In this document: positions 41,671-52,325 of the stretch, in pieces
How the letters are laid out: every line of letters begins with the position of its first letter
How positions within the stretch are numbered: position 1 is the stretch's first letter
NCBI GenBank assembly: GCA_016188575.1
Contig: JACPHN010000137.1
Coordinates: 1-52,325, forward strand
Direction of reading: 5' to 3'
Origin: Candidatus Schekmanbacteria bacterium
GTDB taxonomy: Bacteria; CSSED10-310; JACPHN01
DNA: 52,325 nucleotides
Notes under the pieces: generated by a model
The model's input: only the letters and a program-made list of their open reading frames with translations
Databases searched by the model: none
Told to the model about the DNA's origin: nothing
Made by a program: the position numbers and the translations under genes

Positions 41671-42264
41671 TTATGGCGGCCACCCGGCCAAGCGCAAGAG
41701 GCGTCGCGGCAGACCCTGATTCTGCCTCCCCTCCCCCCGTACTCGAGACGTGTGAGTGACATTGCTCGTGCCTGGCAGGCCTTCGGTTGGGTCGCCGATG
41801 GCGCCAAGCCAGGAGCAAGGTGGAGTGCCGTGTCCGGCTGCGGCCCCTTGCGGCGCCGATGGGGCAGAGACTTTGGGCATGAGTCTTTGCAAGATGTGCC
41901 GATACTGGATCTCCCGCGGCTTTTCGGCACCAACGTCGGCTCTACGTCCTATCATCCTGTGCACCCGAACACCAGCCGCCCTCTGATCGTCGCGCGCTAT
42001 CATGCTGCGGCAGACAGAACGCAAAAGCTCACCCGCCGGGGCCGCCTCGGAAGGCGTTGAACCCTCAGAGGCCGCGCTGGCGGCCCCGGTCGGCTGCAGG
42101 GCCTGGTCCGGCTCTACCTTGCGCGGAGGGAAGGAAACGAACTTGCGCCCGCTCTTCTTCTCTTGTTCTTTGATGTCGCGAAAGATCGCGTCCAGATCGT
42201 AATTGAAGCGGGCAGCATGGGCGTCGCGCACTCGCCGAGCTTCATCGACAATGGGGTCGTTCAT
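41671..42264 (-). CDS. Putative antitoxin with read-through C-terminal tail
   Basis: 197 residues as read. Only the first 50 or so look like a real small protein (MNDPIVDEARRVRDAHAARF, then FRDIKEQEKKSGRKFVSFPP), a type repeatedly found just after PIN toxins. From about residue 53 the frame runs into a palindromic attC-like element (coding LQPTGAASAASEG...) and then into sequence with no protein character. The native stop was probably lost when the element joined. Its ATG overlaps the PIN gene stop (ATGA), so toxin and antitoxin are coupled, with the toxin first. Confidence 0.55.
   Translation of the reverse strand: MNDPIVDEARRVRDAHAARFNYDLDAIFRDIKEQEKKSGRKFVSFPPRKVEPDQALQPTGAASAASEGSTPSEAAPAGELLRSVCRSMIARDDQRAAGVRVHRMIGRRADVGAEKPREIQYRHILQRLMPKVSAPSAPQGAAAGHGTPPCSWLGAIGDPTEGLPGTSNVTHTSRVRGEGRQNQGLPRRLLRLAGWPP
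42014..42112 (-). repeat. Degenerate attC-like palindromic element (site B)
   Basis: Perfect 11-bp arms CCGGGGCCGCC (42036-42046) and GGCGGCCCCGG (42079-42089) with a long loop; outer boxes GCCGGAC and GTTCTGT (minus strand) are poor matches to RYYYAAC and GTTRRRY. The coded tail LQPTGAASAASEG resembles attC read-through tails I recall from environmental cassette proteins. Confidence 0.4.
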
Positions 42265-42740
42265 GGCGTTGCCTCCAAGAGCTCATCCGGCGTACAGATG
42301 ATCGGGGCCTTGAGGCCCTTGGCTGCGCAGACCGACTCGATCATGGGCCGCATCGCGGCATTCGCCAAATGGCGGCAGTTCCACGTCAATAGGAAGGGTA
42401 CTCCGTTCGTGGCGGCGATGGCAATATGCAGCGCATCGTCTGCGGCCTTTGCCGGCAGCGCATCTGCCGCGATCAGTTCTTTCGCCAAGGCCAAGGCCTC
42501 AGGCGTCGTTTCCCGAAGGGTCATGGCGTTCAAGACCGCAATCCGCTCAAGAGCAGCTTGCGAATCACCGGCGCCGGCCTCCCCCAAGACCAACTGGGAG
42601 ACGCAAAGCTCGTAGCTCTGCCGGCGCGTGGCCCACCATTCGTGGGTGGTCTGCTGATGACCAGCAATCACCACATCCCGGCTGGGCCTCGCCGGCAAGT
42701 AGCTGACGAACGTGGTCTCGATGTAGACTCGCTCCGCCAT
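42261..42740 (-). CDS. PIN-domain toxin (VapC-like)
   Basis: 159 residues from ATG 42740; an upstream in-frame ATG at 42785 would only add a short unrelated leader. PIN landmarks: YIETTFVSYLPARPSRD (first acidic residue as Glu, as in this subfamily), SQLVLGEA, ADDALHIAIAATNGV and TWNCRHLANA. PIN toxins are metal-dependent RNases, usually cutting tRNA or rRNA. The partner antitoxin overlaps its 3' end. The pair stands just downstream of hsdR and between two attC-like elements, so it may have arrived as a cassette. Confidence 0.85.
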   Translation of the reverse strand: MAERVYIETTFVSYLPARPSRDVVIAGHQQTTHEWWATRRQSYELCVSQLVLGEAGAGDSQAALERIAVLNAMTLRETTPEALALAKELIAADALPAKAADDALHIAIAATNGVPFLLTWNCRHLANAAMRPMIESVCAAKGLKAPIICTPDELLEATP

Positions 42741-42851
42741 GAGCGTTGTGAACTCCCCCGCTAATCCCTCGGTCAGCTTGAGCATGACCTGCTCGGCACC
42801 ATGGTGGGCGACCAGCCCGACGAACCGCTCGTGGGAAATGGACGCTTTGAA

Positions 42852-42911
42852 GCCGAACGCTCAGCATCAGCGGCGGCACGAAGCGCCGTCCGCTGCATGC
42901 TGTTGTTGGGC
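42852..42911 (-). repeat. 60-bp attC-like site (site A)
   Basis: Minus strand begins GCCCAAC (perfect RYYYAAC) and ends GTTCGGC (one departure from GTTRRRY). Between them the arms pair as 6 + 6 + 4 bp (CAGCAT/ATGCTG, CAGCGG/CCGCTG, CGGC/GCCG) with two single-base bulges, both on the same arm, and a 7-nt loop. The length, box sequences and one-sided extrahelical bases are all attC hallmarks. It begins 5 bp after the hsdR stop. Confidence 0.6.
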
Positions 42912-42915
42912 CGTG

Positions 42916-45900
42916 TCATCGCAGCACCTCCACCAGTTCGGCGATCACCGACACTTCACCCTCGTCGACGTCTGCCAGCACGATGGTCTCGAATTCGCGG
43001 TTCTCCGGCCGAAGTCGAATGACCTTGTGGCGCCAGCCGTCTCCATCGTCGCCGCCCGGCTCCTTCTCGCTCTCGTAGCGCTTGACGGTGTAGCTGCCGC
43101 CGCCCTCGGGATCCTGGATGGACTGGTGCTGCACGAGCACGATGCGGCCCTGGCGCGATCCCGTGACCGGCGAGTGGAAGAGACACCACGCGCCGTCGGG
43201 AATGCGGGGCTGCATCGATCGCCCCACGACCTGGGCCACGAACATACCCTCCGACAGCGGGCGCGAGGTTCGCGGCACGACCCAGCCGTCGGGGTCAACG
43301 TGCTGGTCCGCTCCGAACGCGCCGGCGGCGGCCTTGAGCGTGTAGAGCGGCACGCAGGTGCGGAACCGGTCCGCCGCCTTCGGATCGACGCGCTCGAAGG
43401 GCTCGCCGTCGGAAGTCGCGGCCCGCGCCTGCTCGCTGCGTGCCTGCTCGTAGACCTTCTTGAGTAGGTGCTTGCAGACGACCTCCTGGAACTCCTGGTC
43501 GTTCATGAAGCGCGCGGTGATGTCCTCGTTTTGCTCCATGCGGTCGATGAAGAGGCCCTCGAGCGCCTTCAGGAACACGTAGCCGAAGTTCTCCATCGTG
43601 TTCGCGAGCGCCGCCTGGCGGATCTCGGGATCGGCAAGGGCGTCCTCGCGGATCGACTCCAGGAAGAGCTGGTCGCCCGGCTTGAAGTCGGTCCCGAAGC
43701 GCTCGTTGAGGATGTCGATGAGCTGGGAGAGCTCGATCATCGCGCCCTGGGCGGCGCGGCTCCCGACCGCGACGGGACCCGCGACCTCGCCACCCTTCCC
43801 CGCCTCGAGGGCGATCGAGCCGTCGCTGATCTTCTGGAGGCGGTAGTACTTCAGCGCCACCTCGTCGTCGAAGTCGTAGACAGGGCCCCGGTCGCCCTTC
43901 GGCAGCTTGGTGAGGAGGAAGCGGATGTAGGAGTAAAGCTTCTCGAGGTCCGAGTCCTGGAACGGGATGACTTGCGCGAGGAAGGCGTAGAGGTTCCGGT
44001 AGACCACGAGCGTCTTGCGGAGCTCCTCGCGCTCCTCTTCGGCGAGTTGCGTGTAGCGGTGCACCGCGGGATCGATGCACGCGTTCATGCGCGCGTGGTC
44101 CGCGCCCGTCTGGTTCTGCCGGGGCTTGTAGAAGACCTTGCAGAGCTCCTCGACCTCGCTCTTGTGATAGACCTGATGGCCGTCGAGCTTGGCTTGGATC
44201 TCGTAAAGCTGGCTCGGCTCGGCGCGCTCGCCGACGAGCGTCTGCTCGTAGTAGGGCTGGAAGGCGGCGAGGATCTCCTCCGGCTCGTTCACGAAGTCGA
44301 GGACGAAGGTGTCCTCCTTGCCCGGGCACGTCCGGTTGAGGCGCGAGAGCGTCTGCACGGCCTGGATGCCGGCCAGCCGCTTGTCGACGTACATCGTGTG
44401 CAAGAGCGGCTGATCGAAGCCAGTCTGGTACTTCTCCGCCACAAGGAGCACCTGGTACTCCTCGGAGCCGAAGCGCTCCGGAAGCTCCTTCTCGCGGATG
44501 CCGTGGTTCATCCCGACCTCGGTGTACTCGACGCCCGGGGCGTCGGGGTCGATCACCGTGCCGGAGAAGGCGACCAGCGTCTTGATGCCCTGGTAGCCCT
44601 TCTCGGAGATGTACCGGTCGAAGGCCTGCTTGTAGCGCACGGCGTGGAGCCGGCTGGAGGTGACGACCATCGCCTTCGCCTTGCCGCCGATCTTGTGCAT
44701 CGTGAAGTGGCGGAAGTGCTCGACCATCACTTCCGCCTTCTGCGCGATGTTGTGCGGGTGCAGGCTCATGAAGCGCGCGAGCGCGCGAGCAGCCTTGCGC
44801 TTGTCGACCTCGGGGTCATCCTCGATCGACTTGATCAGCCGGTAGTAGCTCTTGTATGTCGTGTAGCTTGCCAGCACGTCGAGGATGAAGCCCTCCTCGA
44901 TCGCCTGTCGCATGCTGTAGAGGTGGAACGGCCGCGGCTTGCCATCGGCAGCGGGCTCGCCGAACACCTCGAGGGTCTTGTACTTCGGCGTGGCCGTGAA
45001 GGCGAAGAAGCTGATGTTCGGCTGCCGGCCGCGCCTGGCCATCGTGCGCAGGATCTCTTCCTCGTGGCCGGGGAGCCCCTGCTCCTCCGCCTGCTGCCGC
45101 GCCTCCTCGCGGACCGCGGCGCCGCCGAGCACGCCCTTGAGCTCGGTCGCGGTCTCGCCGCCCTGCGAGCTGTGGGCCTCGTCGATGACCACCGCGTACT
45201 TCCGCCGCGGCAGGTCCCCGATCTTCTCGGTGACGAACGGGAACTTCTGGAGCGTCGTGACCACGATCGGGACGCCGGTGCCGAGGGCCTGGGCGAGCTG
45301 CGCCGAGTCGCGGTCGATCTTCTGCACGACCCCCTGCCGGTGCTCGAACTGGTAGATCGTGTTCTGGAGCTGCTGGTCGAGTACGACCCGATCCGTGACG
45401 ACGACGACCGAGTCGAAGATCTTCTCGTCGTGGGCATCGTGCAGCGTCGAGAGGCGGTGCACCAGCCAGGCGATGGAGTTGGATTTGCCACTCCCGGCCG
45501 AGTGCTGCACGAGGTAGTTGGCCCCGGCCCCACGCTCGCCGACGTTGTGGACGAGCGCCCGCACGCAATCGAGCTGGTGGTAGCGGGGGAAGATCATGCC
45601 CTCCCGCTTGACCTTCTGTTTCCGAGGCGCTTCTCCTCGACCTGCAGGTGGATGAACCGGGCCAGAATGTCGAGCAGGCTCCGCCGTTCGAGGACCTCTT
45701 CCCACAGGTAGGCGGTCTTCCAGCCGCCGGGGTTCTGCGGGTTGCCGGCCCCGCCCGCGCGACCCTTGTTGAACGGCAGGAAGTGCGTGTTGCGGCCGGA
45801 GAGCCGCGTCGTCATGTAGATCTCATCCGGGTCCACCGCAAAATGGACGAGGGCGCGCTTCTTGAACTGGAACAGCCGGTCGGCCGGGTCCCGGTCGTGC

Positions 45901-46418
45901 TTGTACTGGCGCAGGGCGTCGCGCCAGGTCAGCCCCGTCATCGGGTTCTTCAGCTCGGCGGTGACGATGGGGATGCCGTTGAGGGACAGGATCACGTCGA
46001 GCGTGTTCGCGTGCCGCGGCGAGTAGCGCACCTGCCGCGTGACGGTCAGGCGGTTCGCCGCGTGGCGCCGCTCGGCCTCGGGGTTCATGCCGCTGGCTGG
46101 CGCGAAGTAGGCGGCGCGGAAGAGCTTGCCGAAGCACTTGAAGCCGTGGCGCAGGACCGAGAGGCAGCCCTCGTGCTCGGAGTCGAGGGCGCGGCACAGG
46201 TCGTCGATCAGGGTCTGGGCCGCCTTATCCTTCTGGAGGCTCTCGAGGTAGGCCCACTCGTCGGACTGCGTCTCCTTCACGAAGGCGAGCAAGGTCGGCG
46301 GGTCGATGCAGCGCTCGGCGTCGAACGCGTCGCGGTCGCCAGTCGTGTACCCGCCCGAGGCCGTGAGGTAGGCCTCGATCGCGGCCTCGAAGGCGGCTTC
46401 GGTGTGGCGGCCAGGCAT
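42916..46418 (-). CDS. hsdR: Type I restriction subunit HsdR with C-terminal LexA-like S24 domain; one frameshift
   Basis: Start ATG 46418 overlaps the DUF4411 stop (TGATG). N-terminal nuclease domain with LDVILSLNGIPIVTAELKN (PD-ExK). The first frame ends at 45594; near 45618 the reading must shift by one missing base (from LQVEEKR to RKQKVKREGMIFPRYHQLD). The helicase part follows with AGSGKS, VIDEAH and FTATPKYK. The last 150 residues (about 42919-43370) are an S24 peptidase-like domain: cleavage-site-like LKAAAG, nucleophile Ser in VGRSMQPRI, Lys in YTVKRY, and LRPENREFETIVL, all close to LexA. Restriction motor plus autoprotease in one chain is unusual. Without repair of the frame no full HsdR is made. 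Confidence 0.9.
46370..46418 (-). repeat. hsdR 5'-edge repeat, resident copy
   Basis: First 49 bp of hsdR; 43 of 49 positions match 48293-48341 in direct orientation (hand alignment). See the mini-ORF entry. Confidence 0.8.
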
Positions 46419-46942
46419 CAGCGCACCCCTCCGAACTCGAACCGCACGGCGAGATCCTTGAGCATCCGGAACGAGTCCGTGTAGGACACGTCGAACTGCG
46501 CGCAGACGTCGGGGAGCTTGATCTCTCGCTTGGCCTCCGGACGCCGCTCTTCGTTCGTGACGACGATCGCGCCGTGGACTCTCGCGTAGGCCACGAGCCA
46601 GCCGTCCGCGCCGGTAGCGAACTTCGCCTTCGCGTGGTCGAAGTACTGGGGGCTCCGTTGCACCCACAACATGACGTCGGTGTACGCGGTGGTCACAGGA
46701 TCATCGTCCACGCCGAGGAAGAAGGTGTCGGGCAGGTCCTTCCTCACCCACTGCACCAGATCCTCCGTCTTGTGTCCCGCGAGCAGCTCGTTCCTGACAC
46801 GGTCGATGCTGTAGGTCCGTCCGGCGCGATGATGATGGATGAGGCTCGCCCAGAACCCGGGGCAGATGTCGAACGCGTAGTACCGGTTCTTCGCCGTGAT
46901 GAAGACGTCCGCGTCCAGGATGTACTGACGCTCGGCCGCCAT
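46418..46942 (-). CDS. DUF4411 PIN-like protein (putative toxin nuclease)
   Basis: 174 residues, ATG 46942 overlapping the previous stop (TGATG). DUF4411 family, a PIN-like fold: LDADVFITAKNRYYAFDICP near the start, SIDRVRNELLAG, GADGWLVAYARVHGAIVVTNE and a late SYTDSFRMLKDL, giving the set of acidic residues expected for a metal-dependent nuclease. DUF4411 genes are typically paired with an ImmA/IrrE-type HTH protein as here, which makes a toxin-antitoxin pair likely. It is coupled downstream to hsdR. Confidence 0.85.
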   Translation of the reverse strand: MAAERQYILDADVFITAKNRYYAFDICPGFWASLIHHHRAGRTYSIDRVRNELLAGHKTEDLVQWVRKDLPDTFFLGVDDDPVTTAYTDVMLWVQRSPQYFDHAKAKFATGADGWLVAYARVHGAIVVTNEERRPEAKREIKLPDVCAQFDVSYTDSFRMLKDLAVRFEFGGVR

Positions 46943-48087
46943 CAGAACCCGAACCCCAGGCGCTCCGCGTATTCCTGGAAGGCCCCTCCACGCAGGCCGG
47001 TCAGGTCGTATGCCTCCTTGAAGCCCACACGGCCCTCGATCGCGGCGCGGATGACGTGCGTGGCGAAGAGTGCGCCGACGCGGGTGTTCTGGTTGTTGTA
47101 GAAGTCGCCGCCTCCCGGTCCCTTGCTCCGGCGCCGCTCTTCGGCAACGTATGCGCGGTAGAAGGTGAAGAAGGCCTCCCGGTCGACCAATCGGAGGTCC
47201 ATAGCGCGCCGGCCAGCGACGATTGGGCTCACCTTGAATCTTCGCGCGAGATCCTCGAACGGTCGCTCGGCGCGCTTGGCGTCGCTCCAGCAGGCCCTGA
47301 GCTCGCGCTCCGGGACGAGGAACTCCGCCGCCGCCTTGTCGCAGAAGTCCTCGATCTGCGATCCGCCGGGAAACAGATCCTCAAATCCGGAAACGCCCTC
47401 GTTCCCGAGCCAGACGTGGGCAAGCTCGTGCGCCAGCGTGAACATCTGGGCCGACTTGGCGTCGGCACCGTTCACGAAGATCAGCGGGGCATGAGTGTCG
47501 CAGAGGGCGAAGCCCCGGAACTCCTGCACGTCGAGCTTCCGATGCGTGTTGTTCCCCACGACGCCGTTGATCACGGCCATGACCCCGAGGTCCTCCACCG
47601 CCTGCCGCAGCCTCGACACGGCTTCCTGCCACGTCCGCACCTCGGCGGCCCAGCCATCGCCGAAACCGATGATCCGCCGCATCTCCCGTCCCACCGCCCC
47701 GGGCGCGTCCCTCAGCCGTGCACTGCCGACGAACTCCAGCGGATCCGCTTCGCCGTCGAGAAGCGTCTCCCGCAGCCACGCCTGGCGTTGCTGCATGGCG
47801 TAGATCGAGTCGAGCAGGTCGGGGCTCGGCCCACGCAGCTCGGTACCCGCCATCGTCCGGAAGTCCGGAATCGGGAGTCGCTCTTCCGGAGGCTCTGGCA
47901 GGAAGAGGTACCCGATCGGAACGTGCGTCGCATTGGCGAACGCCTCGAGTTGCCTCATCGTCGGCTGCGCCTCGCCCCGTTCCCAGGCCGGGAGCTTGGG
48001 GAATCGACTCGCCAATGCGTGCACGGGGAGACCCGCACGCTCGCGCGCCCACTGAACGAGGTCAGGCTTGATGGCGACGCGGCTCAT
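46942..48087 (-). CDS. XRE-HTH / ImmA-IrrE (M78) metallopeptidase, putative antitoxin
   Basis: 381 residues, ATG 48087 overlapping the mini-ORF stop (TGATG). N-terminal XRE-type HTH (about 5-65, LASRFPKLPAWERGEAQPT), linker, then an M78 metallopeptidase domain with the zinc motif HELAH (about 217-221 in FTLAHELAHVWLG) and the downstream glutamate in CDKAAAEFLVP. ImmA/IrrE proteins cleave repressors in mobile elements; with DUF4411 partners they are thought to act as antitoxin or regulator. It precedes the DUF4411 gene with a one-base overlap. Confidence 0.85.
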   Translation of the reverse strand: MSRVAIKPDLVQWARERAGLPVHALASRFPKLPAWERGEAQPTMRQLEAFANATHVPIGYLFLPEPPEERLPIPDFRTMAGTELRGPSPDLLDSIYAMQQRQAWLRETLLDGEADPLEFVGSARLRDAPGAVGREMRRIIGFGDGWAAEVRTWQEAVSRLRQAVEDLGVMAVINGVVGNNTHRKLDVQEFRGFALCDTHAPLIFVNGADAKSAQMFTLAHELAHVWLGNEGVSGFEDLFPGGSQIEDFCDKAAAEFLVPERELRACWSDAKRAERPFEDLARRFKVSPIVAGRRAMDLRLVDREAFFTFYRAYVAEERRRSKGPGGGDFYNNQNTRVGALFATHVIRAAIEGRVGFKEAYDLTGLRGGAFQEYAERLGFGF

Positions 48088-48341
48088 CAGTTCTTGTACC
48101 CCCTGATCCGCTTGAACCACGAGTCCACGAGATTCAGTTCCATTTCGAGCGCGTCGACCTCCGGGGCGACGTAGTTGACCAACACGCTCTTGTCGTGGCG
48201 CTTCGCCCATTGCGACACTCGGCTGTAGCTCGCCTGGAACTCCTTCTCGTCGTCGTTCGAGAACCGGGCCAGGATCTTCACCATGTTCGGGCAGACCTCG
48301 ATCACGGTTTCGAAGGCGGCTTCAGTGTGGTGGCCAGGCAT
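48087..48341 (-). CDS. Chimeric mini-ORF: hsdR start fused to a small unknown protein
   Basis: 84 residues. The first 16 (MPGHHTEAAFETVIEV) copy the HsdR N-terminus (MPGRHTEAAFEAAIEA), and the DNA repeat is 49 bp (48293-48341). The rest, from an internal ATG at 48284 (MVKILARFSNDDEKEF...), is a charged helical protein I do not recognise, ending WFKRIRGYKN with TGA overlapping the XRE gene start. It begins 2 bp after darG. It looks like the junction made when a cassette entered the start of hsdR, placing the cassette's first gene under the hsdR start signal. Confidence 0.6.
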   Translation of the reverse strand: MPGHHTEAAFETVIEVCPNMVKILARFSNDDEKEFQASYSRVSQWAKRHDKSVLVNYVAPEVDALEMELNLVDSWFKRIRGYKN

Positions 48342-48343
48342 CG

Positions 48344-49417
48344 TTACTCGACCCCTGGGATCCAGCCTTGCTCCTGAAGGCGATGGTTCGCGGTCTTGAT
48401 GTGCTCTTCCTTGAACATATTCCGCTTTCGGTTGTTCCAACCGTGAACGGCTCCCACGACTTCCCGATCTCCTGAAGGCCTCGGCTTGGAGTGTACGGCC
48501 ACCCAATGCACCGATGACAGGAGCTCCATGCCGTACGGCGTCTCGAAGCCGTCGATGAGATCCGCGACGCGCCGCAACCGCGTTGTCGACTCCTCGTGCG
48601 CCTTGAGGAAGTCGTCGGCTTCCTCCATCGCCCCCGCGAGGAGCTCGATTTCTACATCGGGCTTCTGGCTGTCGCCATAGCCCCGGATAAAGTGCCCCTC
48701 CAGAACCTCGAACACTTTGTTGAGATTGTGAGCATAGGGCCCGTAGTGACCTGCCTCGTAGCTCAAACGCAGGGGCTCCCCGCCTTCTTGCAGGAAGTAG
48801 GCGAGCTTCTGCATCTCGAGTAGGGTCAAGCGGTAGGCCAGGAGCGAGTATTGCGCCATGAGACGGATGAATAGCGCTCGGGCGATGGTGAGGTGAGGTC
48901 GCTCCGTACCCACGGGCATGGCGCTCGCCGAGGGGGCGCCGGCCGGCTCGAACAAGGTCACCTGCACATCGTCGAGCCCAGCGAAAGCGCCCTCAATCAA
49001 GGGCCGCACTTCTGCCCAGTCGAGGCCGCCGAGACCGCAGCCCAGCGGCGGAACCGCGACGGAGGAGATCTCGTGCTGGCGGATCACCTCGACGAGGTCT
49101 TCCAATCCATCGGCGATGTCCTCGATCCGCGACTTGCCGCGCCAGTGGCGCTTCGTGGGGAAGTTGATGATGAACCTCGGGTTGACCATGCGCCCGGTGG
49201 GGAAGACGAACATCCTCCCCGGGCGCACTTCCTCGGCCCGACATGCCCGCTGGTAAGCCTTGAAGTTCTCCGGAAAGCCCTTCTTGAATTGGAGAGCGAT
49301 GCCCTTGCCCATGTGGCCTACGCAGTTCACCGTGTTGACCAAGGCTTCGACGTCGGCTTCGAGAAGGTTGCCTCGCTTGAGCGTGATCACGATTGCAGGC
49401 TCCTTCAGTAGTACCAT
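48344..49417 (-). CDS. darG: DarG antitoxin: macrodomain ADP-ribosyl-glycohydrolase with C-terminal domain
   Basis: 357 residues from ATG 49417, overlapping the darT end by 13 bp; GTG 49390 is an alternative. Macrodomain (about 10-165) with NLLEADVEALVNTVNCVGHM, GKGIALQFKK and VPPLGCGLGGLDW, typical of DarG, which removes ADP-ribose from thymidine in single-stranded DNA. The C-terminal region (about 190-350, LTLLEMQKLAYFLQEGGEP) resembles the DUF4065-type fold that binds and blocks DarT. DarTG modules protect against phage. Here it is embedded between hsdS and hsdR. Confidence 0.92.
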   Translation of the reverse strand: MVLLKEPAIVITLKRGNLLEADVEALVNTVNCVGHMGKGIALQFKKGFPENFKAYQRACRAEEVRPGRMFVFPTGRMVNPRFIINFPTKRHWRGKSRIEDIADGLEDLVEVIRQHEISSVAVPPLGCGLGGLDWAEVRPLIEGAFAGLDDVQVTLFEPAGAPSASAMPVGTERPHLTIARALFIRLMAQYSLLAYRLTLLEMQKLAYFLQEGGEPLRLSYEAGHYGPYAHNLNKVFEVLEGHFIRGYGDSQKPDVEIELLAGAMEEADDFLKAHEESTTRLRRVADLIDGFETPYGMELLSSVHWVAVHSKPRPSGDREVVGAVHGWNNRKRNMFKEEHIKTANHRLQEQGWIPGVE

Positions 49418-50049
49418 TCTGGGTGGACGTTGACGGGGCGACCGAGCGGCGCTGGATAACCCGCGAGAATCCCTTCGACTCGAGCCTTCACCGTGCCGTT
49501 GAGGACGCCGATCTCCTGGATCAGCCTCCAGTCGCACGCACGGTGTACCAGAAACTCGGCCTGCTTGCGGCGTTGCCGATCCATGTCGTCCACAGTGTCG
49601 GCCCAGTACTGTGCTGCCACCGCGCCCCAATCCACCTTGTCCAGGTCGGCCAGGTTATCGAACCACGACGTGAAGGCGGCGATGCCGTGTCCGTCCGAGA
49701 AGACGAAACCCACCCCGTTCGCCTGGACTTGTTGTGCGGTGGACACGAGGTAGATCAGCGGCGCCTGGCCTTCGGTGTATCCCGCAACCCGTCCTGTGTG
49801 GAGTTGGAAAAGCATCGGCGAACGAGGCCCAAAGTAGAACGGAACGTAGTCATGGATGACGCCGCCGGGTCCGCAAGCCACCGTTCGTGTCCGTCGCTGC
49901 TGCTGAATGTCAACGTTGTGGATCGTCTTGTATCCATGACCGTCCTGAGGCACATGGTTCGGTGCGTGGAGCGCGGCCCGCGCGAGACACACTGGCAGAT
50001 TGTCCACGTGGAGAAAGCGGTAGACGGGCGTGGGCAGGGGCACGCTCAC
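49405..50049 (-). CDS. darT: DarT toxin: ssDNA thymidine ADP-ribosyltransferase (DUF4433)
   Basis: 214 residues from GTG 50049, overlapping the hsdS stop by GTGA. DUF4433 signatures: YRFLHVDNLP near the N-terminus, VPFYFGPRSPMLF, then the ARTT-like FTSWFDNLADLDKVDW and the catalytic glutamate in RRKQAEFLVHRACDW, followed by LIQEIGVLN. Full length for the family, so probably active. DarT modifies thymidines in ssDNA and blocks replication; during phage infection it stops phage DNA synthesis. DarG follows at once. Confidence 0.92.
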   Translation of the reverse strand: MSVPLPTPVYRFLHVDNLPVCLARAALHAPNHVPQDGHGYKTIHNVDIQQQRRTRTVACGPGGVIHDYVPFYFGPRSPMLFQLHTGRVAGYTEGQAPLIYLVSTAQQVQANGVGFVFSDGHGIAAFTSWFDNLADLDKVDWGAVAAQYWADTVDDMDRQRRKQAEFLVHRACDWRLIQEIGVLNGTVKARVEGILAGYPAPLGRPVNVHPEWYY

Positions 50050-51389
50050 GGGACCGTCTCCTGGCGCACGTCGAGCTTGCCGGTCACGGCGGCCGAGATG
50101 AGCGCGGTGCGGTACTCGCGGAGGCGGTCGATGCTGAGGTTGATCTTCGCGACCACAGCACTGATACGCGCTGACTGGCGCTCCAGGATTGCCGCAATGG
50201 CCTGTTGCTCTTTGAAGGGTGGGAGCACAATCACTCTGTCTGCTGTTTCCGACAGATTCATTCGTGCTCGTGTCGTACCAGTCGCTAGCGCACCGCCCAA
50301 TGCCGAAGCCGTCATTGAGAGTTGAAGTGCCACGTACTCAGGGCTCGTTTCGCACGCGAGTCGAAACCGGAAGCAGTCAGCTTTGACCATCGTGCGCCCA
50401 AGCCAAGGCGGGGCAACGCACGCGCGGCCAACGGGATTGTTGTCGTCACCGAGTCCAGCAATCAGCAGGTCCCCAGGCAGAACGTCATGATCGCCCAGCG
50501 TCTCGTAATGCTCGGGATCGATGAAAGCCTGATCCGTGTCATCGAACCAAGCGAGGCGTATGTTCTGCAAACGAACAACTCGGATTCCAGCATCGACGTA
50601 GTGCTCAGACTTCAGGCCGCTCCCAAAGGGACCGTCACACCGAGATTGTGTTACCCGGCGCAGCTTGATAACAGCCCAATGCGCTGGAATCGCACCGAGC
50701 CACGCGACGCCCGAGTCCTTCATCGGGGCGTTCGGGTCGAGGCCCTTGGTGACGGCGTGGCTGATGAGGGCGGCGCGCTTCTCGTGGAGCAGCTCGATCT
50801 GGCGGCGCTTCTTCTCGATCAGCGCGTCGATCCGCGCCGTCTCGCGGTCCAGGAACGCGGCGATCGCCCGCTGCTCGTTGAGATTCGGGACAGGTATCCG
50901 TAAATCCGCGAGCTTCTCCCTGGTGAAGTGAGCGATGGTCGCGCGGTTGCATAGAACGTCGAACCACCCGGCTGTGTCCACCGCATGCAACACATGCTGG
51001 AGAAAACGAACGTCGGCTGAATCCATGGCGCGCAAGCGGTGAACCGCGTTCTGGATGATGCAGTCGGGCGGAGGGACATCAACGACACCGGCTCGGCCAG
51101 CCTCCCCACCCTCGCAGACCAGGAGATCGCCGGGCTGGATTCCATACTGGCGAAGGTCCGTAGGGCCTGCCCACATCTCAGGCAGATCGTCGGTGTCGAC
51201 GCGCCCCCATTGAACGTGGATGGCCTTCAGGTAGGGCACGGAACGGTCTTCCGGGCTCGCAGGTTCGTTTTGCAGCATCTTGCCGAGCTGAACGTCAAAG
51301 TAACGTTTCACCGGATGCGCCGGCCAGGTAACCGGAGGATCGCCCATCCACTCAACGCCCCGATGATCGAGGTGTCGGACTGCTGTCAT
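50046..51389 (-). CDS. hsdS: Type I restriction specificity subunit HsdS
   Basis: 447 residues from ATG 51389, overlapping the stop of the duplicated hsdM end (ATGA). Two target-recognition domains separated by the central conserved helix (LDRETARIDALIEKKRRQIE then LLHEKRAALISHAVTKGL) and followed by the C-terminal one (LERQSARISAVVAKINLSID, REYRTALISAAVTGKLDVR). The second TRD opens with SGVAWLGAIPAHW, the usual start of a repeat half. It directs the methylase and HsdR to a bipartite DNA site that cannot be read from the sequence. Confidence 0.93.
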   Translation of the reverse strand: MTAVRHLDHRGVEWMGDPPVTWPAHPVKRYFDVQLGKMLQNEPASPEDRSVPYLKAIHVQWGRVDTDDLPEMWAGPTDLRQYGIQPGDLLVCEGGEAGRAGVVDVPPPDCIIQNAVHRLRAMDSADVRFLQHVLHAVDTAGWFDVLCNRATIAHFTREKLADLRIPVPNLNEQRAIAAFLDRETARIDALIEKKRRQIELLHEKRAALISHAVTKGLDPNAPMKDSGVAWLGAIPAHWAVIKLRRVTQSRCDGPFGSGLKSEHYVDAGIRVVRLQNIRLAWFDDTDQAFIDPEHYETLGDHDVLPGDLLIAGLGDDNNPVGRACVAPPWLGRTMVKADCFRFRLACETSPEYVALQLSMTASALGGALATGTTRARMNLSETADRVIVLPPFKEQQAIAAILERQSARISAVVAKINLSIDRLREYRTALISAAVTGKLDVRQETVP

Positions 51390-51469
51390 TCCGACACCTC
51401 CGCCAGCATGCCAGCAATCTCCCGCTCGATCTGCCTCAGCTCCCCTTCGATCTCCGCGAGCGGGCGTGG
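51386..51469 (-). pseudogene. Duplicated 3' end of hsdM
   Basis: 84 bp coding PLAEIEGELRQIEREIAGML plus AEVSE and a stop that overlaps the hsdS ATG. 73 of 84 positions match 52075-52158, the 3' end of the resident hsdM. It begins 3 bp after the YgiT stop and has no start codon. It keeps the hsdM-hsdS junction while the toxin-antitoxin pair lies between the two copies. Confidence 0.85.
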
Positions 51470-51472
51470 CTT

Positions 51473-51718
51473 TCAAGCTGCCGTCGGTTGCCACTGAACC
51501 ACCTCGACCAGGGCTTGCTTGCGGCGGGCGTCGCCAACGACCGCCTCCAGCCGCGCCGCGACCGGATCCTCGATCCATGCCTCGCCGCACTGCGAGCAAA
51601 GCCGGGCCGGGACGTCCCGGACGACCAGTACGCCGAACTTCAGGTCCACGGCGAAGATCGTCGTCCCGGACTCCTGTGGCCCGCCGCAGAGGGCACACCG
51701 AATGGCGTTCGTCTTCAT
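51473..51718 (-). CDS. YgiT-type (MqsA-like) zinc-finger antitoxin
   Basis: 81 residues. N-terminal zinc finger with CALCGG and CSQCGEAW (about residues 8-47), as in YgiT/MqsA antitoxins, followed by a short helical tail (DPVAARLEAVVGDARRKQAL) but no full MqsA HTH domain. Its ATG overlaps the stop of the DUF4258 gene (ATGA). The pair DUF4258 then YgiT-finger is a recurrent toxin-antitoxin arrangement. Confidence 0.85.
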   Translation of the reverse strand: MKTNAIRCALCGGPQESGTTIFAVDLKFGVLVVRDVPARLCSQCGEAWIEDPVAARLEAVVGDARRKQALVEVVQWQPTAA

Positions 51719-52041
51719 GATTTCTCCCTTCGGGTCTTGTAGTCCGACTCGAAATGCTCCTGATCCGGCCTGTAGGCGGTGATCACGTAAGCCGTCCCCG
51801 TTGCCGCGTCCAGCGAGGCCACGACGTGCAGGGGTTCCTGCCTCTTGTGGAATACGAGACAGCTCGGAAGCGGCCTGTCCGTCAAGTATGTCTCGATGGC
51901 CTCTCCCTTCAGGATAGCGGTAAAGACTTCATCGCGGGAGATGCCCCGCTCCTGCAACCGTTCCAATGCGTGGAGCTGCCACTGCACCTTCGCGTGGGCG
52001 ACGGCATCCCGCAGACCCGCCAGGTCGAAGTCAGTGGCCAT
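51715..52041 (-). CDS. DUF4258 toxin-like protein
   Basis: 108 residues from ATG 52041. Matches DUF4258 (RelE/MqsR-like fold): HALERLQERGISRDEVFTAI, KGEAIETYLTDRPLPSCLVF, PLHVVASLDAATGTAYVITA and YRPDQEHFESDYKTRR. Such proteins are predicted ribonuclease toxins. It starts inside the frameshifted tail of hsdM (whose misread stop is at 52031-52033) and is coupled to the YgiT antitoxin. The pair is flanked by two copies of the hsdM 3' end. Confidence 0.85.
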   Translation of the reverse strand: MATDFDLAGLRDAVAHAKVQWQLHALERLQERGISRDEVFTAILKGEAIETYLTDRPLPSCLVFHKRQEPLHVVASLDAATGTAYVITAYRPDQEHFESDYKTRREKS

Positions 52042-52325
52042 GCCCCGCCTCCGGCGGACGACCGTTTCGCGCCATCACTCCGTCACCTCCGCCAGCATGT
52101 CGGCGATCGCCTGCTCGATCTGCTTCAGCTCCCCCTCGATCTCCGCGAGCGGGCGCGGTGTAGGTGTAGATGTAGCGGTTGAGACCGATCTCGTAGCCGA
52201 CCTTGGTCTTCGACTCGTCCACCCAGGCATCGGGAACGTGCGGGAGGACCTCGCGCGCCATGTAGGCGGCGACGTCTTCCTTCAGCGGCACGCTTTCGTA
52301 GTCGCGCAGCGCCGGGTCCGGCTCG
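52031..52325 (-). CDS. hsdM: Type I methyltransferase HsdM, C-terminal part, frameshifted at the repeat boundary
   Basis: Truncated by the window end. Reads PLKEDVAAYMAREVLPHVPD, then KTKVGYEIGLNRYIYTYT, the usual HsdM C-terminus. At about 52156 the frame slips: as read it continues APARGDRGG... to TGA 52031-52033, whereas the neighbouring frame gives PRPLAEIEGELKQIEQAIAD and a stop at 52075-52077. The slip sits exactly where the 84-bp repeat (52075-52158) begins, so it probably marks the recombination junction or a local indel. The missing coiled-coil tail normally helps HsdM contact HsdS. Confidence 0.85.
   Translation of the reverse strand, partial: EPDPALRDYESVPLKEDVAAYMAREVLPHVPDAWVDESKTKVGYEIGLNRYIYTYTAPARGDRGGAEADRAGDRRHAGGGDGVMARNGRPPEAGHGH
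52075..52158 (-). repeat. hsdM 3'-end repeat, resident copy
   Basis: Direct repeat of 51386-51469 (73 of 84 matching by hand alignment). The two copies bracket the DUF4258/YgiT pair. Confidence 0.85.

Follow-up and report, generated by a model that had tools for sequence, protein, structure and literature searches.

Integrons are viewed as stores of small genes. A locus with at least two attC sites and no nearby integrase is defined as a CALIN (IntegronFinder 2.0; PMC9024848), and attC sites typical of particular taxa have been established, with a planctomycete model among them (PMC8352920). The locus described here is like a CALIN: a small cassette is flanked by two attC sites of the same orientation, the contig carries no integrase, and the genome has complete integrons elsewhere. 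It differs from one in the taxonomic types of the attCs, which are not the same for the two sites, and in the continuity of the upstream attC with an hsd operon. With the toxin-antitoxin (TA) cassettes of sedentary chromosomal integrons (Vibrio phd-doc and ccd; archaeal integrons, PMC9668308) it shares a two-gene TA module in an attC array, whereas here the toxin is of the PIN family, the C-terminal tail of the antitoxin is encoded by the attC in relatives, and the host comes from a sparsely sampled phylum. Antiphage genes between attC sites are also on record (Darracq 2025, Getz 2025 and Kieffer 2025, as cited in PMC12444791); the present genome differs in that its attC-bounded units include whole multi-gene systems of 6–9 kb.

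The window, by which we mean the whole contig C256 (52,325 bp) of a draft genome of 9.2 Mb in 275 contigs, holds toxin and antitoxin ORFs lying between two palindromes, site A and site B, on the one strand common to all of them, as the original prediction had it. We put at roughly 90% the probability that the pair is a mobile PIN cassette from a planctomycete pool that was inserted at site A, that site B has since decayed, and that site A itself most likely ends a giant hsd cassette. An Rfam scan of the window returned no match, which is neutral as to attC, and a repeat search of the window at default settings recovered neither palindrome. The features are listed in Table 1.

Table 1. Features of the window (contig C256) and of related intervals on other contigs of the same genome.
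Feature	Position	Strand	Evidence or remark
Site A attC, host-genome class	42852..42911	-	Covariance models R2 and R3, BLAST relatives, fold
PIN toxin-antitoxin gene cassette, 838 bp	42020..42857	-	Span between the two predicted crossover points; homology limits; typical interval length
PIN-domain toxin gene, 159 aa, ATG at 42740	42261..42740	-	Pfam, family alignment, AlphaFold model
Antitoxin gene core (MNDPIVDEARRVRDAHAARFNYDLDAIF...FPPRKVE)	42113..42264	-	Conserved partner of the PIN gene
Site B, decayed planctomycete-type attC (by model and homology)	42014..42112	-	Covariance model R3; homology
hsdR, carrying an S24 domain, one frameshift near 45.6 kb	42916..46667	-	Pfam/NCBIfam
DUF4411 inside the hsd operon	46418-46942	-	Domain match
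M78/ImmA-like protein inside the hsd operon	46942-48210	-	Domain match
DarG inside the hsd operon	48344 to about 49387	-	NF048014 / NF048013 (DarG and DarT) above cut-off; PADLOC
DarT inside the hsd operon	49405-50049	-	NF048014 / NF048013 (DarG and DarT) above cut-off; PADLOC
hsdS	50046 to about 51390	-	NCBIfam / PADLOC
DUF4258/YgiT-like toxin-antitoxin pair and hsdM C-terminal end	within 50046..52325, contig edge	-	TA pair read by eye
Type III-like CRISPR RAMP operon (Cas10/Cmr2-, Csx10-, Csx7-, TIGR03986-like)	C43:49447-58801 (L025)		9,355 bp attC-to-attC
Avs2-like protein, 1,393 aa, and further genes	C56:80552-86743 (L026)		6,192 bp attC-to-attC
Type I RM operon	C102:149880-159353 (L198)		9,330 bp between two attCs
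Mini-cassette examples	L138 464-619, L141, L145, L147, L154 (C117, C43, C102, C99, others)

Site A reads on the minus strand as the 60 nt GCCCAAC AAC AGCATGCAGCGGACGGC ... GCCGCCGCTGATGCTGAGC GTTCGGC, with the R'' box GCCCAAC at 42911–42905, the R' box GTTCGGC at 42858–42852 and a predicted crossover between G 42858 and T 42857. It follows the RYYYAAC ... GTTRRRY consensus with one departure in R' (C for R), and R'' and R' are complementary at six of seven positions. As single-stranded DNA it folds into a hairpin (z -3.6) that none of 200 shuffles equalled, with two single extrahelical bases, both on one arm, and with the bottom strand foldable; the boxes, the 60-bp length and the one-armed bulges that had been read by the original prediction thus agree in sequence and in fold. 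The covariance model R2, trained on 13 other sites of this genome and not on site A itself, scored it at 79.5 bits (E 6.8e-20), a score that is not fully independent because the training sites had first been retrieved with site A as BLAST query. R3, a model made from planctomycete-locus sites only and hence the more independent check, gave 42.4 bits, while the 82-bit score of a third model, R1, was not counted, since that model included site A. BLAST with site A found 16 further copies in its own genome, several of them clustered, and in an alignment of 14 sites of this class the hairpin is kept by compensatory changes (16 two-sided cells, where shuffles give 9.7), the pairing being lost once the partner arm is slid. 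Site A is a canonical attC of the host genome's own class, and IntI recombination is predicted for it.

Scanning the genome with R2 gave 53 matches with E values of 0.01 or below, 46 of which were at or below 1e-5, that is, about 50 related attC sites, many of them arrayed; applied to seven further genomes from the phylum, the same model detected none, and the class is thus not shared by the phylum as a whole. Two full-length IntI genes (C140 and C88) score above the TIGR02249 cut-off and retain the catalytic R, HxxR, H and Y as well as the IntI-specific insertion, and attC sites of the same orientation lie downstream of each; three foreign IntI loci, translated on the wrong strand, were left out of the residue comparison. 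The checks that the integron reading had set itself, an attC covariance search and a genome search for IntI and same-class attC sites, therefore came out in its favour, with E about 1e-19 for site A and with these two integrases and their sites. On C256, where neither a Phage_integrase nor an IntI match was found, the two attC sites do not form a complete integron, in which IntI and attI stand beside the array. We also observed decayed intI copies at C177:67361-67765, C177:151678-152133 and C7:9898-10649; these fragments, on contigs that bear attC sites, suggest former complete integrons.

Site B had been described as a larger, degenerate palindrome at the end of the antitoxin gene, and its position held to the nucleotide, but as a palindrome it folds no better than shuffled sequence. 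Its R'' box, GCCGGAC, and R' box, GTTCTGT, correspond to GCCGAAC and GTTCGGC in intact relatives: AAC has become GAC, R' is altered, pairs are broken, and with complementarity at four of seven positions the site has neither the intact AAC/GTT core nor paired R boxes. The failure to exceed shuffles is due to this decay of the boxes. R2 gave no score on site B, a result that looked like a refutation, and since relatives of the locus turned out to carry a second attC class, R3 was built from 13 planctomycete-locus sites, excluding the window.

These relatives were retrieved with the PIN protein as query against 84,980 species genomes; they are about 65–88% identical, and every one comes from a metagenome-assembled genome whose label places it in the planctomycetes or among their relatives. 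Behind the antitoxin gene, several carry GCCGAACCAGGCGCTGCAGCCGACCGGGGCCGCC ... GGCGGCCCCGGCGGCTGAGCTTTAGCGTTCGGC; in this intact 99-nt palindrome the R boxes pair perfectly, two bases are extrahelical and the loop measures about 30 nt, and the bottom strand takes a canonical attC fold at z -4.7. R3 found many sites in the planctomycete loci, arrayed, and matched site B at 66.9 bits (E 1.4e-15) over its full length (1–99 of 99), ending exactly at 42112–42014; site B is 79% identical to the site of one of these loci (L061). A DNA search of its own genome found no second copy of the site B class. The identity of site B thus rests on homology and not on the palindrome: judged by its match to R3, it is one 99-nt attC of the planctomycete class, and the state of its boxes indicates that it is probably weak or dead as an attC.

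The limits of DNA homology frame the cassette. Similarity to the planctomycete cassettes begins at 42742, 2 nt ahead of the PIN ATG, and ends at 42018–42017 inside the R' box of site B, where it coincides with the GTT of that site. The predicted unit between the crossover points (42857–42020) has the bounds of a gene cassette, G/TT at both crossovers (the slash marking the cut) and an attC at its 3' end, with the R' of site A upstream and a 5' leader that is not conserved; 838 bp is a typical length for this genome. PIN homologues of 47–55% identity lie between attCs on C43 (48898–49356) and C99 (5246–5707), and another lies before an attC on C10, so that the view of the PIN pair as an integron cassette gains from its own genome as well as from the attC scores of both sites. 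Neither the planctomycete cassettes nor any other locus compared has a counterpart of the 111-bp leader that precedes the PIN gene, and thus the 5' end of the cassette is not planctomycete throughout. An open frame (GFKASISHERFVGLVAHHGAEQVMLKLTEGLAGEFTTL) was seen in the leader between site A and the PIN gene (window 42741–42857). A plasmid DNA search found no relative of the PIN cassette.

From these data we propose that a planctomycete cassette pool would be the source of the PIN cassette, which would have been acquired along with its attC, site B. IntI would then have inserted it into the resident host-class site A, with the crossover at the G/TT of the bottom-strand hairpin, and the essential boxes of site B would have decayed after the insertion. 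In R', site A agrees with the planctomycete sequence (GTTCGGC) rather than with its own R''; the R' half (TTCGGC) may have been contributed by the incoming cassette, which would explain the mismatch between R' and R''. Site A itself would most likely be the 3' attC of a giant cassette with the whole hsd (type I restriction-modification, RM) operon.

The PIN gene gave a weak Pfam PIN match, and in a family alignment of 27 sequences E54, D102 and N121 are invariant and E8 is near-invariant. Its AlphaFold model has a PIN fold (pLDDT 90.9); a fold search of the PDB with this model returned VapC toxins for nearly all of the best matches, VapC20, VapC15 and Salmonella VapC leading, whereas a sequence-profile search of the PDB with the protein found no match. 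Fold, acidic active site (from the model and the conserved residues) and a small adjacent partner gene are as in VapBC; identity of 10–19%, a Glu as the first acidic residue (YIET) and an antitoxin that lies downstream of the toxin and belongs to no matched family are not. The gene is best modelled as a VapC-like toxin, and its product would be predicted to be toxic. In most of the homologous loci that were read, the antitoxin gene accompanies the PIN gene as a conserved partner; it had no match in Pfam or NCBIfam. Its stop often lies inside the attC in relatives; in the window that in-attC codon is TTG, and the frame therefore extends across site B to 41671. In several attC classes (L054–L091) the attC was seen to encode the C-terminal tail and the stop of the antitoxin, with endings such as ...ALQPTGAAISVSQDSKSLEAAPAAEL and ...LHPGR before the stop codon, which may explain such tails in environmental proteins.

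On the other side of site A, the hsdR stop lies 4 bp away, and there is no GTT between the end of hsdR and the site, the nearest one being 332 bp inside hsdR; site A is therefore continuous with the 3' end of hsdR. The genome has further hsdR-attC junctions, with gaps of 7 bp (C102) and 22 bp (C117); by a rough binomial estimate, in which about 8,500 genes were assumed, the junctions would arise by chance at about 5e-4 even with the window left out. No attC lies near the hsdR genes at C112 and C209. The window operon thus has a 3' attC continuous with it, while its 5' end is off the contig, which ends inside hsdM; C170, a candidate hsdM-edge contig reached by hsdM N-terminal fragments, gave no R2 or R3 match. 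Since hsdR runs into the attC and two other hsdR genes end in one, the operon is less likely to be a neutral neighbour than to belong to a cassette, probably a giant defence cassette of which the window holds the 3' part. The original prediction had seen in an attC directly after hsdR a landing place for cassettes; the attC is indeed directly behind hsdR, but it is continuous with the 3' end of that gene, and the operon more likely lies within a cassette itself. Elsewhere, an R3 attC match of 29.8 bits was observed in a truncated-hsdM region (C5:39658-39745; L205 3159-3246, plus strand). Frameshifts were noted in hsdR (window 45594–45705) and apparently in hsdM (about 51.9–52.2 kb), which are either decay or sequencing errors, and up to three TA-like modules (DarTG, M78/DUF4411 and, by eye, the DUF4258/YgiT-like pair) lie in the operon at 46418–51900.

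Long intervals of this kind recur in the genome. Over the 35 intervals shorter than 15 kb, the median distance between neighbouring attCs of the same strand is 651 bp, and the three longest of the 35 (9,355, 9,330 and 6,192 bp) all hold defence systems. The 9,330-bp unit on C102 has the anatomy of one cassette: an attC (159353–159270), an hsdM start 44 bp further on, hsdS, a gene of no assigned function, a helicase, hsdR and a second attC (149939–149880), with hsdM truncated to its N-terminal domain and an internal S24 domain in hsdR. A mini-cassette without coding sequence, about 150 bp long (G/TTCTTCCGACGC...84-nt attC...CCCCG/TT), is present in about 17 near-complete copies (93–98% identity) and in partial ones on many contigs, some inside other attCs and others not; its R'' is near-constant and its R' varies with the next cassette, which indicates exchange at G/TT and lends indirect support to the predicted recombination of site A by IntI. 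On balance we favour, by a modest degree, the broader view that this integron carries multi-gene antiphage cassettes of 6–9 kb (type I RM, type III RAMP, Avs2-like), that the window hsd operon with DarTG and embedded TA genes is another, ending at site A, and that the mini-cassette is shuffled among them. The case for the giant cassettes is one of anatomy, in a draft genome that may hold assembly errors and undetected attC classes.

Among the other explanations of the locus, the one that we take most seriously, while holding it to be rather unlikely, is that the hsd operon is ordinary chromosomal DNA and that attC and PIN pair form a small CALIN remnant, left by the decay of a longer array or dropped at a non-classical site (attG). 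That the contig has two attC and no integrase, and that the hsdR genes at C112 and C209 stand without attC, would fit such a remnant, and IntI is known to use attG sites (PMC12901181, citing Loot 2024). Against this, no GTT occurs from the hsdR stop to site A or within the final 330 bp of the gene, which leaves an inserted cassette no point at which to begin, and hsdR-attC gaps of 4, 7 and 22 bp are far above chance. The planctomycete affinity of the best PIN relatives, together with an estimated assembly contamination of 3.7%, could also mean that the contig is a planctomycete contaminant and that no cassette has crossed between phyla, but the class of site A fills the other contigs of the genome and the planctomycete type appears only as site B, which leaves this improbable.

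That the PIN genes form an ordinary chromosomal operon of VapBC type, flanked by terminators or unrelated repeats, is very improbable indeed. The fold of site B, not above shuffled sequence, and its uniqueness in the genome by DNA search would be expected of such an operon, yet each site is matched over its whole length by an attC covariance model, and relatives have intact attCs, in arrays, at the same place. The terminator or unrelated-repeat reading of the palindromes is ruled out by the R2 match of site A and the R3 match of site B.

The reading that we prefer remains a PIN cassette of planctomycete origin inserted at site A, behind what is most likely a giant hsd cassette. On its own the PIN unit is a TA cassette of the ordinary sort, marked by a clear cross-taxon signature, a host-class attC upstream and a planctomycete-class attC downstream. 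Its surroundings point further, since whole defence operons seem to be cassette units here. If IntI can excise or insert cassettes of 9 kb, complete restriction or CRISPR-like systems would be able to move by way of integrons, and defence islands would overlap with integrons.
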